Source of the DNA: Bacteroidaceae bacterium
GTDB lineage: Bacteria > Bacteroidota > Bacteroidia > Bacteroidales > Bacteroidaceae
Assembly (NCBI GenBank): GCA_024401275.1
Contig: JAKSLJ010000019.1
Coordinates: forward strand, 1 to 62,849
Length of the DNA: 62,849 nt
Direction of reading: 5' to 3'
In this document: piece after piece, positions 3,559 to 62,704 of the stretch
How the letters are laid out: the number at the start of each line of letters is the position of its first letter
How positions within the stretch are numbered: position 1 is the stretch's first letter
Notes under the pieces: model-generated
Told to the model about the DNA's origin: nothing
The model's database searches: none
What the model saw: the letters and a program-made list of their open reading frames with translations, nothing else
Made by a program: the position numbers and the translations under genes

Positions 3559-4752
3559 TCAAGCTTGCACCTGCCAGAGCAGTAGCTTGTCTTTTATGGT
3601 TTGTGTAACCTTATCGTCAAGGGGCTCCATCGGCATAAAGCCTTCTTCAAGCATATAGAAGTCCTTGAGAAGCTGCATCAGTCGCGCTGTATCCTGATGA
3701 ATGTTCATACGAAGGAGCATCACGTTGACCGTATCTTCATCATAATCAGTAAGTTTCAGCTCGCGATAAAGTTCTGCAAGATGGCGCTGAGAGATGGTGT
3801 TGTGAACAATCTCGTACCTTACATTCACCAGCAGCTTGACTATCTTAAGCTCGGCTTCCGTAGCGTGTTCCTCTTTTCCGACAGAGGCGATGAGCGACTT
3901 GCGGGAGAGTGTCTTCAGCGAGAGAAGCGGGTCAAGATTCTTCTTGCTATTGTATATGTAATGCGGCGTATTGTCGGCATATTCCTTAGCACCGGCAGGC
4001 AGGAACGGAAGCAACATGTTGAGGGTGCCTTCGTACTGGGCATGAAGGATGATCTTGCGATAGGAATCGTTGAGTTCGTCTTCATTCTTCAATCGCTCGC
4101 CCATATGCTGCTTGTACATCACGGCTTCACGAAGGAGCATTGCCTCTTTACGGCGCTCTTCATCGGACATGAAGAGATAAGGCTTGCTGTTGGAAAGGGC
4201 GGCGTGGATGTACGAATACTCGCGGCGCATATCTTCCTCCGAGCAATTTGCCGAATAGACGGCGTTAGGGATAGTGACAATATGCTTGTTTGTCTGTATG
4301 TTAGTCTCCTGCGGAGTGTCAACGAGGATGACATCTGCCTGCTCAATGATGCGATTCTGATAAAGCTTCATCTGCAAGCGGCGCTTCAGCTTGGCAATGC
4401 TATGCCATGGCATGAGAAGCTTATGTGTGGAAAGAACCAAAGGACGCTTATAGTACTTTTCGTTCCACTCCACGATGCTCATCATCAGTCGTGACCAGCA
4501 GGAATGTATGTTGAGTATGTCCGGATTCACCTCATCCATGACCCGACGGAAGCGTCTCTTGTTGCGCCAAAGCATCCAGGTGAAGTAAGAGAGATAGTGT
4601 ACATGCACTCCTTCTATCTTGACTTCCTCGTCGGGCTTCGGCATCAGCAGGTGCACCTCGTAGTCCTCGCCAGCTTCGCGAGCCAGAATCTCAAAATATT
4701 CCTTCGGCAAGCGGATAGGGTGAAATTCGTCTATGTAATGGAGAACTTTCAA
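3559..4752 (-). CDS. GT-B-like glycosyltransferase with atypical C-terminal half
   Basis: The N-terminal 165 residues look like the acceptor half of a GT4-type glycosyltransferase: MKVLHYIDEF start, ILNIHSCWSRL near 95, LVLSTHKLLMPW near 130, ADVILVDT near 160 and TIPNAVYS near 180. The C-terminal part (190-397) is Glu- and Leu-rich and mostly helical, and lacks the usual donor-site EGFG/PxxxE-type motif, so a true transferase activity is not certain. The start codon is TTG (CAA on the plus strand at 4750-4752); it is preferred because MKVLHYID is a typical N-terminus for this family. The next gene upstream is a membrane GT2, suggesting a shared envelope-glycan task. The acceptor is unknown. 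Confidence 0.7.
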   Translation of the reverse strand: MKVLHYIDEFHPIRLPKEYFEILAREAGEDYEVHLLMPKPDEEVKIEGVHVHYLSYFTWMLWRNKRRFRRVMDEVNPDILNIHSCWSRLMMSIVEWNEKYYKRPLVLSTHKLLMPWHSIAKLKRRLQMKLYQNRIIEQADVILVDTPQETNIQTNKHIVTIPNAVYSANCSEEDMRREYSYIHAALSNSKPYLFMSDEERRKEAMLLREAVMYKQHMGERLKNEDELNDSYRKIILHAQYEGTLNMLLPFLPAGAKEYADNTPHYIYNSKKNLDPLLSLKTLSRKSLIASVGKEEHATEAELKIVKLLVNVRYEIVHNTISQRHLAELYRELKLTDYDEDTVNVMLLRMNIHQDTARLMQLLKDFYMLEEGFMPMEPLDDKVTQTIKDKLLLWQVQA

Positions 4753-55883: not shown

Positions 55884-57608
55884 ATGCAAAAGTATCTACT
55901 CACTCTCATGTCTATGATCATGGCATCGACTCTTACGGTTAAGGCGCAGAGCTGGTGCGAAGATCTTGTCAAGCTCAATCCTGATGTCATTGACTCGGTG
56001 TGTCTCCTAAAAGATGAGAATATAGTTGAACCGGATCTGGTTTCATACATGATCCATTATCACCAGCCTCTGAAGCATGATGCTCCAGAACTTGGCTCAC
56101 TTTCTTTGCGTGCGTTTTTTACTGTAAGCAACGGAACAAGAGGAGGTGAGTTCACGGAAAAGATGATTCAGATGTCCATCGGTGGCTACGCTCTGTCAGA
56201 TAATGCAATGCATACTCCCAATAACTATGTTGCCGAGCTAACCCTGGATACTTCCCTAGGCGAAATCGCAGCAAACTACTTCGGTCATCTGCTGATGCCA
56301 GAACACAGATACTTCGGCTATTCATTTCCAGATGGTGGTTATCGTTATAAAACCGTGGGATATTGCGAGGCAAAAGAAGCTGCTGCCGACTTCCATGCAC
56401 TGGCAGAGGCTATGAAGAAGGTGTTCCACGGCAAATGGTGCATCTCGGGTGTCAGCAAGGGCGGCATTGCGGCTGCTGCGCAACATGCCTATTATCCAGA
56501 CGACGCTGACTTCTTCGTGCCATACGTACCACCTTTCCTGAATAGTACTAACGACATGCGCGTACAGGAGCACTGGATGTCGGAGCCTTGGACTCCAGAG
56601 ATGCGCGAGCATATTCTGCATATTCAGAAGGAGATACTACATCGTCCTGCTGTGTATGAATACTATCACAAGCAGGAGTTTGAGAAAGAAGGACTGACAG
56701 AGGATCTTTTCCGTTGTATGTTCCTGTACAAACTCGCCATGTATTTTACCGGCAAGTATATGGAGGAGACTCGAAGTCAAGTAAGCCAAGATATTGACAG
56801 TAATATGGAATATCTTAAGGATAAGGGCCTGGAGGATTATTCTGACGTAATGCTTATCTACATGTTTATGTGCAAAGGTCAGATTTCCTTAAGCAACGGT
56901 TTTGAGTATTGGTATGAAAATACCTATAAGGGCAAATCGGAATCAAATAAATCGCCGCAAGCTTCCGCTGCTATCGGCAAGTCGGAGTCGGAGCCTGTGT
57001 TTGGTTTGAATTTAGGTGACTGGAAAAGTGGCACAGACATTGCCTTTGCATACCAGACAGTTCATGAATTGGGATATTACGGATTGAAGTGGGACTATTT
57101 CTATGATACTCAAGCAGAGAAAGACTCCGTAAACGCCTTGTGGAAGAACAACGTAAAGAGCGCGATTGATCTTGATACCTATGACGTGCTCAAGAATGTG
57201 GAATACGATCCGACGTTCATAAACTTTGTACGCCAGCAGACGAAAAAGGCGACAAAACCAATGATTTTCATCTATGGCGGCGACGATATATGGACTGGTG
57301 CTCAGATAGAAGATGAGTACATCAATGGTGATAATGTCCGCAAGTACATCCTGCAAGAGCAGAACCATAGTGCTTGTTATTCCAAAACATTTGATAAAGA
57401 CCAAGATAATAGTATGGGACGTGAGATATGGGAATTCCTCAACTCTGTCTTCAGACCAGACTTAGCTGGCATTACCGAGACTACTGACAACAAGCCACAG
57501 ACCACTGGCATCTACAACCTCAGCGGTTGCCGCATCCCGCAGCTCCAGAAGGGCATCAACATCGTGAAGATGAGCAACGGAACGACAAAGAAGGTTCGCG
57601 TCAAGTAA
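55884..57608 (+). CDS. Secreted S37-family peptidase (prolyl tripeptidyl-type)
   Basis: Serine peptidase of the alpha/beta-hydrolase fold, 574 residues, with a signal peptide (MQKYLLTLMSMIMASTLTVKAQ). Peptidase S37 signatures: LMPEHRYFGYSFPDGG near 138, KWCISGVSKGGIAAAA with nucleophile Ser191, FIYGGDDIWTGAQ (Asp) near 455 and QEQNHSACY (His) near 488. It probably trims proline-containing peptides outside the cytoplasm. The last 35 residues (GIYNLSGCRIPQLQKGINIV to KKVRVK) match the short C-terminal tail seen on the C10 peptidase. It is flanked by direct repeats of the rmuC 3' end, suggesting insertion here. Confidence 0.85.
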   Translation: MQKYLLTLMSMIMASTLTVKAQSWCEDLVKLNPDVIDSVCLLKDENIVEPDLVSYMIHYHQPLKHDAPELGSLSLRAFFTVSNGTRGGEFTEKMIQMSIGGYALSDNAMHTPNNYVAELTLDTSLGEIAANYFGHLLMPEHRYFGYSFPDGGYRYKTVGYCEAKEAAADFHALAEAMKKVFHGKWCISGVSKGGIAAAAQHAYYPDDADFFVPYVPPFLNSTNDMRVQEHWMSEPWTPEMREHILHIQKEILHRPAVYEYYHKQEFEKEGLTEDLFRCMFLYKLAMYFTGKYMEETRSQVSQDIDSNMEYLKDKGLEDYSDVMLIYMFMCKGQISLSNGFEYWYENTYKGKSESNKSPQASAAIGKSESEPVFGLNLGDWKSGTDIAFAYQTVHELGYYGLKWDYFYDTQAEKDSVNALWKNNVKSAIDLDTYDVLKNVEYDPTFINFVRQQTKKATKPMIFIYGGDDIWTGAQIEDEYINGDNVRKYILQEQNHSACYSKTFDKDQDNSMGREIWEFLNSVFRPDLAGITETTDNKPQTTGIYNLSGCRIPQLQKGINIVKMSNGTTKKVRVK

Positions 57609-58358: not shown

Positions 58359-58569
58359 TTTGGCGAACGAAAATTATCGTGAATGGAACGTAAATTTTCG
58401 TAAATTAATTGTTGCGACTAACGAGAAATTAACGTGAATTCAAAAAAAATTAATTCATGAAAATTCGCGTCTAATTTACGGCAATTCACGTCTAAAAAGA
58501 AACAAGGGAAGACTTTTCTCGAAGTCTTCCCCTGTTTATCATGTGAAGGAGAACCGTCCCCCATCATTA
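58359..58569. repeat. 211-bp tandem duplication, outer copy
   Basis: Differs from 58570-58780 at one base (CCGTCCCC versus CCTTCCCC near the end). It contains a complete extra copy of the terminator hairpin and of the neighbouring gene's stop codon. Confidence 0.95.
58506..58531 (-). terminator. Duplicated Rho-independent terminator (outer copy)
   Basis: On minus, GGGAAGACTT-CGAGAA-AAGTCTTCCC then TTGTTTCTTTTT: a 10-bp stem and T-rich tail. Identical to 58717-58742. Confidence 0.8.
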
Positions 58570-58780
58570 TTTGGCGAACGAAAATTATCGTGAATGGAAC
58601 GTAAATTTTCGTAAATTAATTGTTGCGACTAACGAGAAATTAACGTGAATTCAAAAAAAATTAATTCATGAAAATTCGCGTCTAATTTACGGCAATTCAC
58701 GTCTAAAAAGAAACAAGGGAAGACTTTTCTCGAAGTCTTCCCCTGTTTATCATGTGAAGGAGAACCTTCCCCCATCATTA
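58570..58780. repeat. 211-bp tandem duplication, inner copy
   Basis: The right edge coincides with the stop codon (58778-58780) of the lipoprotein gene. Carries the functional terminator. Confidence 0.95.
58717..58742 (-). terminator. Rho-independent terminator of the lipoprotein gene
   Basis: Ten-bp stem GGGAAGACTT/AAGTCTTCCC with a 6-nt loop and a T-rich tail on the minus strand, 36 bases past the stop codon. Confidence 0.85.
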
Positions 58781-59320
58781 CTTCTTAACGAAGGTACAGC
58801 CGCTGCCTGACTTGGTGAAGGTACCCTCAATGGTGATGTTCATGTGTGGTTCGAGATTTTTTAAGCACACGAGAGCCTCCTCACGTGATACGCCAACATA
58901 ATATCCCTCATACTTGTCACTCCAAAGACCTTTTGACTCGCTACCTACTGTCTTGTAACTTGCATAAGCCAAAGGAGAATTAATCATTATGTTGAATTCA
59001 TCCTTGCTGTTCATGTACTCATCGAAAGTAGGCTTCTTGACTGCCTTAATCTCGAGTTTCACTGTTGCTGGCAACTGTGTGCCCTCATCAAGAATAGGGA
59101 ATGTTCCATTTTGAGGTGTTATCACCTTTACAGAACCGTCCATAGCGGTGTAGGTCACTGTGATGTCGTAGAGGTTCATCATGTCATTGCTGAATGATGG
59201 TTCAGCTTTGAAAACGCAGCTCTTGAACTTGTCTGCACTTTCTTCGTCATCGTCACCACAAGATGTGAAGGCGAATGCCATTGCGAGCATTGCCATTGTC
59301 ATTACAATGATTTTTTTCAT
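58778..59320 (-). CDS. Small lipoprotein of unknown function
   Basis: A 180-residue lipoprotein with signal peptide and lipobox FTSC (Cys21) followed by GDDDEE, a likely surface-export signal in Bacteroidales. The first 24 residues are nearly identical to those of the next gene upstream (59371-59925), while the mature parts differ. The mature part is probably beta-rich (YDITVTYTAMDGSVKVITPQ, ATVKLEIKAVKK). No domain recognised. It lies downstream of the C10 peptidase on the same strand with 50 bases to its paralogue and ends at a strong terminator. It may be a peptidase partner or inhibitor; that is conjecture. Confidence 0.75.
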   Translation of the reverse strand: MKKIIVMTMAMLAMAFAFTSCGDDDEESADKFKSCVFKAEPSFSNDMMNLYDITVTYTAMDGSVKVITPQNGTFPILDEGTQLPATVKLEIKAVKKPTFDEYMNSKDEFNIMINSPLAYASYKTVGSESKGLWSDKYEGYYVGVSREEALVCLKNLEPHMNITIEGTFTKSGSGCTFVKK

Positions 59321-59370
59321 CTTTTTTACTTTAATGTTTTAATGGGTTGCTCATTCAGGATAAATGCCGT

Positions 59371-59925
59371 TTATTTCACAACGCAACTTCCGAAAGTTGC
59401 TGCATTTCTTTGATTAATGTAATCCTTGACTTTTTCCTTCATAAGTCCTGGCATAAAAAAGACATTGCCACTTGCTGAAAGATACTGCTCGTCGCCAACG
59501 CCGATGAAAGCGGCAATGAGAATGTCTGTTGTCTCAGGAAGCTCTACACCGTCCTTGATTGAGAAATCAGAGTTGAAGTGAGCATCACCATGCATAGTGG
59601 CAGGAATATCGTAGCTGTAAACATCGATAGTACCTTTCTCCTTAGCTTCATCCAGCTTAGAACCAGCCTTTGTCTCAACCGATTTAGGCGCAGAAGTTTC
59701 CTTCTTGAGCTCATTAAGCTTAAGAACCTTTGTCTCAGAGCCAATAGTCAGCTTATACTGTCTGTTGAGATACTCGTTGCCATTATCGAAGATGTAAACT
59801 CTGCGAACTGTGTTAGCAGAACTGCTGCCACCACCTGGGATGTCATCATCATCGTCGTCGCCACAAGATGTGAAGGCAAATGCCATAGCGAGCATTGCCA
59901 TTGTCATTACAAGAATTTTTTTCAT
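59371..59925 (-). CDS. Small lipoprotein, paralogue of the downstream gene
   Basis: A 184-residue lipoprotein, lipobox FTSC (Cys21) followed by GDDDDDDIPGGGSSS, an acidic plus Gly/Ser linker. The signal peptide MKKILVMTMAMLAMAFAF is almost the same as the neighbour's, implying recent duplication of the export signal with different cargo. Mature part: RRVYIFDNGNEYLNRQYKLT and ILIAAFIGVGDEQYLSASGNVFFM. Domain unknown. 59 bases downstream of the C10 peptidase gene, likely same transcript. Confidence 0.75.
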   Translation of the reverse strand: MKKILVMTMAMLAMAFAFTSCGDDDDDDIPGGGSSSANTVRRVYIFDNGNEYLNRQYKLTIGSETKVLKLNELKKETSAPKSVETKAGSKLDEAKEKGTIDVYSYDIPATMHGDAHFNSDFSIKDGVELPETTDILIAAFIGVGDEQYLSASGNVFFMPGLMKEKVKDYINQRNAATFGSCVVK

Positions 59926-59984
59926 GTTTAATGGTGAGGGCTTACCTATATCGCCCTCGGGGTAATTATGATTAATACTTTATT

Positions 59985-62060
59985 TTATTTCTTTACGATT
60001 TTCTTGCCATTGCGGATAAAGATACCCTGTACGGCATTTGGATTCACTCGCTGACCTTTGGTGTTAAATATCGGCGCGTTCAGTTCCTTATCAGCCTTAA
60101 CATCGTTGATGGCGGTGATAAGGTCTTTCATCGGATACACCTTTGAGTCAAAAAGTATAGCACCGTCATTAAGTGAAAGCATTAGCAATAATTCTTGCTT
60201 CTCTAAGTCATCTTCATATAAACATAATAATTGTAATGTTTTTTCTAAAGTTACAGTTTCACCAGCTTTAATTTTAGTATCTTCAAAATTGTATTTACCA
60301 TCACCTGTTGGAACACGCTCATCTGGGTTTTCTGCAGGATATCTGAGATTGCCATCTATACATAATTTTTTATCTGAAGCATTACTTACAAAATCTTCGT
60401 CGTCAAAATTAGACAATTGCACCTTCACATTCAAATCCACGAGCATTCCGTCTTGGCTTGCGTATTCACAACTTAGGATTTCGCCAATAAGGACTTGCTT
60501 ATCATACTGGAAAATTGCGTCTAAAAAACCGCTACGTACCAGGACACGAGTTTTTTTCAAAAGATTCATTGCAGGATATTTGATATCCGTAGCACTCGAC
60601 TTTAATAACACATCTATGTGATATAATCCATCGGCAAAGTGGCTAAAATCAAACGCACTAAGCGAAACTAACTCTAAACATTTTTTTTGAGCCTTGAGAG
60701 TGAAATCGCTAAGCACAACTTTTTCTTCTACCACCTTGTTATCTTTATCAACAAGTTGAATCACTATCTGGCCATGGAAATCATCAATACCTCGGTTGCG
60801 CAAACCAACTATACTGATATCGTCAATTGCACCCATCTTTATTGGCGAACAGCACTCATAATCGAAGCGGAAGTGCTCGGATGTGGCTACGGATTTGCCA
60901 TCACGGTCTGGTATGCAATTAAATATAGTAGTTTGCTTATCGGTATAACCACCGTCACCACTACCTCCACCAATGCCTTTGTGATCAGGATTAAGCGATG
61001 TAATCAAGAAATAGTCATTATAATCTCCGCCCCATCCCCAGTTTACATGGAAGAGTCCCTCGGCATTATAGCCATCAAGCACGAAACAATGGCCGGCACC
61101 CGTTTTTGCATCCGTTCCGCCGTAAGGCAAAGGACGCTTCTGGTTGATTTCGTTTTTCACCTTTTCCACCCATTCTTCCTCGGTATAGTATTCAGGATAA
61201 TCTACGTATATGTCCTTGCTATATCCAAAATTATCGCGCAAAGCAATAGCTCCAAACGCAACAGGGGTTCCGCTTCCTCCCATACTGTTTGGTGCGAATT
61301 CCATGCGTGATGCCACAGCGATGTCGTAGCACAATTGTCCGACGGCTTTTCCCTGTACTTCGGTGTAGGAACCTGTATAGTCGTTGATCATGTCAGCCCA
61401 GTTATAGGTGTGGGTATCAAGCTCTACGGATGGGACATCAATTACAGGTTTCTTTTGTGATGAATGCTCGGTGTCCACATCCTGGCCCGTTTTATAGGCA
61501 GCGGTGGTACCAGTAGGCTTAGTTGGCCATTCATGATATTTCATCACCTGTGCAATAGCCGTTGACACGCAGCCGTTAGGGGTTTTCTTACCTTCATATA
61601 CAGGGCAAAGCGAACAGAAAGGTTCCGACTGGTCCCAAATGGTTTTGCAAAGAGGTTCCACAGCAGCTGGCGATGCGTAGAGCTTTGGAGCTGGTATCTC
61701 GCCACGGCGTACGGCATCTGTCAGACGAGCATAGTAATCGAGCATATACTCCATGGCAGGTGGCAGGTTGTCGAGGTCGGAACGCTCTGAATAACCCAAG
61801 ATGGCTGGCATCTCATCGTCAGCAGAGACGAACACCACGTTCTCGCCACGGCTGAACGCATAGAAAGCAGTAGGAGCATCCTTGCTGCTTGCATATTCCT
61901 TGCTGAGCACAACTGTAGCGCCTTTTACCTTAGCCTTCATAGAGCTTTTCTGGAAGAAGGAAGCTGCTACGGCTTGCGCCTTGCTCTTGCCAATAGGTGC
62001 AGCCGATGCCGAAATGGCGCACAACACCAAGAATAGGATTAAGATTGATTGCTTCTTCAT
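59985..62060 (-). CDS. C10-family cysteine peptidase (streptopain/interpain-like)
   Basis: A 691-residue secreted cysteine protease. Start ATG at 62060 gives a signal peptide (MKKQSILILFLVLCAISASAA); an upstream TTG frame is ignored. Residues 22-125 match the C10 propeptide (AVAASFFQ, FYAFSRGENVVFVSADDEMPAILGYS). The catalytic domain has Cys164 in TPNGCVSTAIAQVMKYH, His324 in GAGHCFVLDGY and the Trp region HVNWGWGGDYNDYF. A long beta-rich region (400-650) of unknown fold follows, then a short tail (IFNTKGQRVNPNAVQGIFI) like that of the S37 peptidase. Related to SpeB and Prevotella interpain A. Flanked by three lipoproteins. Confidence 0.9.
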   Translation of the reverse strand: MKKQSILILFLVLCAISASAAPIGKSKAQAVAASFFQKSSMKAKVKGATVVLSKEYASSKDAPTAFYAFSRGENVVFVSADDEMPAILGYSERSDLDNLPPAMEYMLDYYARLTDAVRRGEIPAPKLYASPAAVEPLCKTIWDQSEPFCSLCPVYEGKKTPNGCVSTAIAQVMKYHEWPTKPTGTTAAYKTGQDVDTEHSSQKKPVIDVPSVELDTHTYNWADMINDYTGSYTEVQGKAVGQLCYDIAVASRMEFAPNSMGGSGTPVAFGAIALRDNFGYSKDIYVDYPEYYTEEEWVEKVKNEINQKRPLPYGGTDAKTGAGHCFVLDGYNAEGLFHVNWGWGGDYNDYFLITSLNPDHKGIGGGSGDGGYTDKQTTIFNCIPDRDGKSVATSEHFRFDYECCSPIKMGAIDDISIVGLRNRGIDDFHGQIVIQLVDKDNKVVEEKVVLSDFTLKAQKKCLELVSLSAFDFSHFADGLYHIDVLLKSSATDIKYPAMNLLKKTRVLVRSGFLDAIFQYDKQVLIGEILSCEYASQDGMLVDLNVKVQLSNFDDEDFVSNASDKKLCIDGNLRYPAENPDERVPTGDGKYNFEDTKIKAGETVTLEKTLQLLCLYEDDLEKQELLLMLSLNDGAILFDSKVYPMKDLITAINDVKADKELNAPIFNTKGQRVNPNAVQGIFIRNGKKIVKK

Positions 62061-62176
62061 TTGTGTATGAATTTTTGACAATTTTTCTTTTGACAAACAA
62101 TGTCCAACAATAGACAGAAATTTAATCAATAATATTTTTGAAAGAATTTTTGAAAATTATTGAGAATTCTTGTCTA

Positions 62177-62599
62177 TTATAAGCCATAATAGTTTGTCTT
62201 CCAGTCATAGTGCTGATAGACTTTGCCTTCCTTCAGCATCTTGAAAGAGCATGACAGGGTTTTGTCGTTAAGGAGCTTTGCATAGTTGTCAAGTAAAGTC
62301 TGGATGCCATAATTACTTCTAAGTGCAAACTCCAACTTTCCCCATTCGTGGTCGGCTTCAGTGTCAGTAAGGTAGAATTCCCTCTTTGTCTGCTCCTGAA
62401 TTTCCGCCTGCATATTGGCAACGACAGTCTTGTACGCAGCGCTTTCCCTAACCTCAGGGTTGTTTGTGTTGACCTCGAAAGTGAGGGTGAACTTGTTTTT
62501 GCGAGATACTGGCTCGTCGTCATCACCGCATGACGCGAGCGTTGCTGCACTGATAAGTGCTACTGCCATGAAGAGCAGTGTGTAAAGATACTTTTTCAT
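62177..62599 (-). CDS. Small lipoprotein next to C10 peptidase, candidate inhibitor
   Basis: A 140-residue lipoprotein, lipobox LASC (Cys24) followed by GDDDEPVS. The mature part is about 115 residues: KFTLTFEVNTNNPEVRESAAYKTV, then a helix, then CSFKMLKEGKVYQHYDW. Size, lipidation and position directly upstream of a C10 peptidase match the linked lipoprotein inhibitors reported for Bacteroides C10 proteases, but no sequence motif proves it. A TAATTTTG box lies 42 bases upstream, so it heads a transcript that continues into the peptidase gene 116 bases later. Confidence 0.75.
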   Translation of the reverse strand: MKKYLYTLLFMAVALISAATLASCGDDDEPVSRKNKFTLTFEVNTNNPEVRESAAYKTVVANMQAEIQEQTKREFYLTDTEADHEWGKLEFALRSNYGIQTLLDNYAKLLNDKTLSCSFKMLKEGKVYQHYDWKTNYYGL

Positions 62600-62640
62600 A
62601 ATCTATTATGTTTGTATATTCTGTTTAGTTTTTCCGCGTG

Positions 62641-62648
62641 CAAAATTA
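62641..62648 (-). promoter_or_regulatory. Promoter -7 box for lipoprotein-C10 peptidase operon
   Basis: TAATTTTG on the minus strand, 42 bases before the ATG at 62599. Confidence 0.6.
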
Positions 62649-62704
62649 CAAAAAGTTTTATATTCCGACATGCACAATGGCACAAATCTGCGGCAAGAAC
62701 TTTA

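Follow-up and report, generated by a model that had tools for sequence, protein, structure and literature searches.

The stretch of DNA analyzed here, referred to as the window, comprises all 62,849 nucleotides of contig JAKSLJ010000019.1 from a Bacteroidaceae bacterium (assembly GCA_024401275.1), and is an entire contig (C11) of a 3.2-Mb genome that is 91% complete. It carries a predicted operon of four genes, all on the minus strand, that are read in the order LP1, C10 peptidase, LP2 and LP3, where LP1 to LP3 are small lipoproteins. Upstream of LP1, 250 nt remain before the contig ends. By its position, its size and its loss together with the peptidase in a relative, LP1 is the leading candidate for a dedicated inhibitor, and comparison with a relative that lacks the peptidase points away from LP2 in that role. 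The features of the operon are as follows.

62641..62648, minus strand: promoter-like box TAATTTTG, a match to the pattern TAnnTTTG upstream of LP1
62177..62599, minus strand: LP1, a lipoprotein of 140 amino acids (aa) with lipobox Cys24, 423 bp including the stop codon, the candidate dedicated inhibitor
62061..62176, minus strand: AT-rich gap of 116 nt between LP1 and the C10 gene, 21.6% GC against 46.6% in the window
59985..62060, minus strand: C10 cysteine peptidase, 691 aa read from its ATG, a predicted exported zymogen
61725..62003, minus strand: I69-type propeptide of the C10 peptidase, aa 20-112, Pfam PF13734 (Inhibitor_I69)
61008..61637, minus strand: catalytic domain of the C10 peptidase, aa 142-351, with Cys164 and His324, from Pfam and alignment
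59988..60113, minus strand: C-terminal tail of the C10 peptidase, its last 42 residues, a stretch with which other exported proteins of the fetched loci also end
59371..59925, minus strand: LP2, a lipoprotein of 184 aa with lipobox Cys21 and with homologues in the relative G120
58778..59320, minus strand: LP3, a lipoprotein of 180 aa with lipobox Cys21 and with homologues in genome G325
58711..58748, minus strand: terminator hairpin of 16 pairs followed by a T run, from a hairpin search and folding
58359..58780, no strand: exact 211-nt tandem duplication, giving a second copy of the terminator, from DNA self-comparison

The operon that an earlier note on this DNA described is confirmed, and the note identified the type of system correctly. 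The streptopain-type peptidase with intact Cys164 and His324, the lipoproteins of 140 aa upstream and of 184 and 180 aa downstream, on the same strand, and the one promoter-like box and one strong terminator were all found as it had stated. Each lipoprotein has a lipobox; the promoter-like box lies before LP1 and the terminator after LP3. The range that the note gave (59985-62599) covers C10 and LP1 and omits LP2 and LP3. From the box to the terminator the operon extends over about 58711-62648 on the minus strand, with gaps of 116 nt between LP1 and C10, 59 nt between C10 and LP2, and 50 nt between LP2 and LP3.

The box follows the pattern TAnnTTTG, which we take to be the Bacteroidota promoter motif. 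Two other minus-strand matches were present within 58500-62660, at 60404 and 61226, both inside C10, and none fell in the intergenic gaps of the operon on that strand. Over the window as a whole the pattern was not commoner than expected by chance (41 found, 36.75 expected), but the aligned promoter of G120 keeps the box as TATATTTG. For the 101 nt around the terminator the folding z-score was -3.58, and two of 200 shuffled sequences folded equally well. A second copy of the terminator hairpin, at 58500-58537, stems from the tandem duplication, which begins or ends at the stop codon of LP3. Convergent with the operon, at 55884-57608 on the plus strand, lies a gene for an exported Peptidase_S37/S28-like protein (S37 E 4.6e-11).

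The peptidase matched Peptidase_C10 with an E value of 9.2e-56 (189.6 bits, cut-off 26), and its Cys164 and His324 align with those of interpain A and streptopain, the solved structures that it matched. Inhibitor_I69 was matched in the propeptide position (E 5e-17, 62.6 bits, cut-off 25). The statement of the earlier note that none of the three lipoproteins has a recognisable inhibitor domain holds, none of them having come over the cut-off in Pfam or NCBIfam; the peptidase itself, however, has an I69 propeptide. In the C-terminal half no Pfam match at E≤1 was obtained; the sequence ends in KKIVKK, and the tail may be a type IX secretion tail.

At least 265 of 299 genus genomes gave a C10 match at E≤1e-20, in a search limited, for most genomes, to three scored candidates each. 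The genus matches listed, the window itself excepted, were 31-40% identical and ended by about residue 500. In named genomes, 33 C10 loci were 23-36% identical, the longest reaching residue 612 (L060, 26%) and residue 557 (L062, 28%). No orthologue of the peptidase was found among the listed genus matches or these 33 loci. The genome of the window has four C10 loci and one broken C10 locus. On its contig C4 (L093:4984-7287) a second C10-type gene encodes 424 aa with I69 and C10 domains; it is preceded by a gene for a 131-aa exported-looking protein and followed after 30 nt by one for a 175-aa lipoprotein with a Lipocalin_4 match below threshold, a layout that resembles bfi1A-bfp1-bfi1B of Bacteroides fragilis.

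No match to I69 was obtained for LP1, LP2 or LP3 at E≤1 in Pfam, which rules out for them the identity of a Spi-type inhibitor, and a PDB sequence search gave no similarity to staphostatins. Matches of LP1 to LP3 below the cut-off (PLCC, DUF4971, DUF4972, Crystall_3, NigD-type and others) were dropped as mostly driven by the leader, and a match of the LP2 profile to designed Pizza proteins in the PDB (best E 4.9e-6) was dropped since it covered 27 residues of a 3-row profile. LP2 had no match among plasmids. The predicted structures of LP2 and LP3 are mainly beta, and their closest resemblance, a weak one, is to DUF4425 lipoproteins and PLAT/C2-like domains; structure searches with the two models gave no confident fold match and named no family. 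A likeness of LP2 to LP3 seen by eye was rejected as homology, with a probability of 0.3% in a profile comparison in which the LP2 profile had 3 rows, and with common DNA in the leader only. LP2 and LP3 may nevertheless share a fold, since both models lie loosely near the same ones. To our knowledge, neither DUF4425 lipoproteins nor PLAT/C2-like domains act as inhibitors. This, together with the operon common to lipoproteins and peptidase, would suit an explanation in which the lipoproteins are partners of another sort, such as substrates, surface anchors or activators, which we consider very unlikely.

The evidence that sets LP1 and LP2 apart comes from G120, whose assembly is 86% complete and in which no PF01640 match was found genome-wide. 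On its contig C89 the promoter region of the operon is recognisable, with 81% identity over the 155 bp that lead to the start codon, and is followed by an LP1 remnant of about 25 codons from the end of the gene (86% over 73 bp), by the last few C10 codons, and by LP2 (91% over 482 bp, to the contig end). What G120 lacks in comparison with the window is about 339 nt of LP1, an in-frame loss, and a segment of about 2168 nt that contains C10. The short C10 remnant argues for a loss in G120 and not a gain in the window. As a relative without the peptidase, G120 provides a contrast in nature by which one candidate inhibitor stands out from the three.

LP2 on contig C89 is open to the contig end, with 132 residues visible at 90% identity. 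The dN/dS between window and G120 was 0.28 over 131 codons and 0.60 over the mature part, the latter indicating weak constraint on mature LP2. When the bodies of LP1 to LP3 without their leaders were searched in 398 genus genomes, LP2 was found in two places, both of them in G120 and with E values of 4e-51 and 9e-32; after these the best match was at E 0.014. A search of 160 genomes, most of which the genus searches had already covered, with a 3-row LP2 profile added one weak match, in G015 (E 7.4e-4), with an internal stop. The second G120 homologue (40-42%), on contig C68, lies 117 nt behind a Peptidase_S8 gene (E 4.5e-37), in whose translation the Asp, His and Ser motifs that we take to be those of subtilases are visible; it is one case. 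LP2 thus appears not to be dedicated to C10, because it is kept in G120 without C10 and its other clear homologue follows an S8 gene.

The same findings could be read the other way, with LP2 instead of LP1 as an inhibitor that guards against more than one class of secreted peptidase, C10 here and S8 in G120, and hence outlives C10. LP2-type genes do stand directly behind peptidase genes of both classes, and the retention of LP2 in G120 at the identity and overall dN/dS given above fits such a role. However, the cases are few, with one further genome among 398 and the weak match interrupted by a stop; the mature part is weakly constrained, and LP2 persists in G120 at a locus without a peptidase. 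We regard this explanation as unlikely.

The closest match of LP3 was in G325 (E 2.6e-52), with two pieces on another G325 contig, and weak matches began at E 2e-4. Among the weak ones, L190, L191 and L196 lie in unrelated long proteins and L193 nearly repeats L195; L197 and L096 were included in alignment A2 and not in A4. Both C10 genes of G325 are on contigs other than that of the LP3 homologue, which stands among genes resembling SusC/SusD operons, and the two pieces lie between transporter-like and leucine-rich-repeat-like genes (all named by eye). More distant LP3 relatives have other genomic settings. LP3 is therefore not considered dedicated to C10, its nearest homologues not being beside C10, and is probably unrelated to the enzyme. 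In three genomes, distant LP3-like lipoproteins (L097:5845-6345, L202:3139-3693 and L201 near 4169-4387) stand in a similar gene order, following genes that encode about 430-450 and 220-250 aa; at these places no C10 gene was noticed.

LP1 itself had, besides its own sequence, a fragment in G120 (E 6.5e-7), and the next match was at E 0.013. The earlier note had proposed that one or more of the lipoproteins shield the cell, and had named homologues usually occurring without a C10 gene as evidence to the contrary. Such homologues are largely what was found for LP2 (in G120, and beside an S8 gene) and for LP3 (in G325), so that the proposal loses ground for these two; for LP1 it stands, and gains support from position and from the joint loss with C10 in G120.

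An earlier search of 60 genomes with whole lipoproteins had returned several matches that were matches of the leader. LP2 and LP3 have a common leader.

59846..59929, minus strand: common leader of LP2 and LP3, LP2 copy, 89% over 84 nt
59241..59324, minus strand: common leader of LP2 and LP3, LP3 copy, 89% over 84 nt

These are the only two full copies of the 84-nt leader in the genome, and the bodies behind them show no similarity in profile or DNA comparison. In G120 an LP2 homologue bears the leader of LP1, at 85% over 89 nt, and resembles LP2 from near the lipobox onward. In a control set of 130 non-redundant lipoproteins from the fetched loci (8385 pairs), 20 pairs had common leader DNA at E≤1e-6, and 13 of these had common bodies as well; of the seven leader-only pairs, five involve the LP1-LP3 locus or its kin. 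The control rows for L095 and L101 are biased, having been fetched by leader-containing matches, while the rows for LP2/LP3 and for LP1 and G120 are not. On contig C2 of the same genome as the window, an LP1-type leader (87% over 45 nt) precedes the unrelated body of a further lipoprotein (L095:5602-6126). Lipoprotein genes at the C10 operon and its kin would thus have exchanged leaders at or near the lipobox.

The earlier note had also suggested a genome survey for co-occurrence with C10 genes. Genes were called in 106 loci and the window, giving 109 C10 genes; lipoboxes and, in the fetched loci, genes were called by crude rules of our own. The count covers 97 loci, the window and nine loci fetched through their lipoprotein matches (L095-L103) being left out, and a neighbor was accepted if it was a lipoprotein of 90-260 aa directly adjoining on the same strand within 300 nt. 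A small lipoprotein followed seven of the 105 C10 genes having a downstream neighbor, compared with 11 of 241 other genes of at least 400 aa and 4 of the 113 among these with a signal-like start. Upstream, where 105 is not the denominator, there were two for C10, seven for the other long genes and three for those with a signal-like start. The counts are slightly inflated, as some contigs were fetched twice (L059/L126 and L060/L142) and L068 and L162 overlap.

One group of lipoproteins, family A5 (L077:12542-13066, L061:12561-13100, L105:8588-9139, L109:8656-9189 and L110:3953-4516), does recur behind C10 genes, at distances of 6-356 nt downstream; it was seen in Paludibacter, in Porphyromonas and in three genomes of the genus to which the window belongs. 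A profile search of the same 160 genus genomes returned these three copies and no others, so none that lies apart from C10. A5 has no NCBIfam or PDB match, and comparison revealed no likeness that would make it a relative of LP1, LP2 or LP3. It is a better recurrent C10 partner than LP1 to LP3.

Leaders and survey both bear on an explanation in which no lipoprotein controls the peptidase, and the locus gathers and recombines lipoprotein genes that share leaders, with the peptidase as a passenger. Unrelated bodies behind common leaders, LP3 relatives away from C10, the lack of enrichment of small lipoproteins beside C10 genes, and the lack of any inhibitor family match for LP1 to LP3 would all follow from it. 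On the other hand, the potempin and Bfi/Bti operons discussed below have the same layout, and LP1 and C10 were lost jointly in G120. We find this explanation somewhat unlikely.

The explanation that we favor, and hold tentatively, is that an exported C10 peptidase is made as a self-inhibited zymogen from the four-gene operon. The enzyme would leave by type IX secretion and be activated by loss of its propeptide, and LP1, anchored in the envelope, would capture the active enzyme like the potempins or the Bfi/Bti proteins. LP2 and LP3 would be co-expressed lipoproteins not dedicated to the C10 enzyme, with exchanged leaders, and LP2 may go with secreted peptidases more generally. LP1 is placed in this role because it has the position and size of the potempins and Bfi/Bti proteins and was lost together with C10 in G120.

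Several findings weigh against this assignment. The peptidase already has an inhibitory propeptide of its own, and LP1 shows no sequence likeness to solved structures at E≤1. No intact LP1 homologue was found in the 398 genus genomes, so that the link between LP1 and C10 shows no recurrence. C10 genes in the survey generally lack a flanking lipoprotein; small lipoproteins show no clear enrichment next to them, and at most a slight excess. The joint loss is a single case in one 86%-complete assembly, where the two deletions may have arisen separately or may reflect an error of assembly.

How the cell surface is protected in Bacteroidota with strong secreted peptidases has been worked out in detail in few species. 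LP1 might found a new family of C10 lipoprotein inhibitors within a mosaic system, in which C10 and S8 peptidases have guards whose bodies are recombined at the lipobox onto a few leaders, like shuffled immunity cassettes; we consider this proposal improbable as it stands. If guards do swap leaders and accompany several peptidase classes, many of them would escape searches based on sequence families.

Among titles and abstract openings on C10 peptidases, staphostatins, KLIKK inhibitors and lipoprotein signal-peptide swapping, none describes the locus of C10 and LP1 to LP3. The closest known systems include the DUF4425 and PLCC-type small lipoproteins of Bacteroides and the SpeB-Spi pair of Streptococcus pyogenes. 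The latter likewise joins a C10 peptidase to a neighboring small gene, but Spi is a propeptide analogue (PMC2873492), whereas LP1 to LP3 lack an I69 match. Three genes of B. fragilis that lie within 35 bp of C10 genes encode small proteins of 116-138 aa, and among these loci the cluster bfi1A-bfp1-bfi1B is co-transcribed and called staphostatin-like by its authors (PMC2873492); btp-bti of B. thetaiotaomicron is arranged comparably, with some of the small proteins being lipoproteins (PMC3462683). As there, the C10 gene of the window is flanked directly by genes for small exported proteins, LP1 and LP2. The differences are that LP2 and LP3 are longer than the Bfi/Bti proteins, that a third lipoprotein gene follows, and that the PDB search revealed no staphostatin similarity here. 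Potempins have an OB-fold or an up-and-down beta barrel. In Tannerella forsythia a small lipoprotein gene, 360-550 bp long and with an AT-rich tract, stands before each KLIKK protease gene, the lipoproteins being mutually dissimilar (PMC4404884), and potempins have been called inhibitors of the co-expressed protease with reference to then-unpublished work (PMC7296668). The KLIKK enzymes named in these papers are metallo- and serine peptidases, unlike the C10 enzyme with its KKIVKK end, and the window has two further lipoproteins after the peptidase. The likeness to LP1 lies in a small lipoprotein gene directly before that of a secreted peptidase with an AT-rich tract between them, and in different peptidase classes being served by mutually dissimilar lipoproteins.
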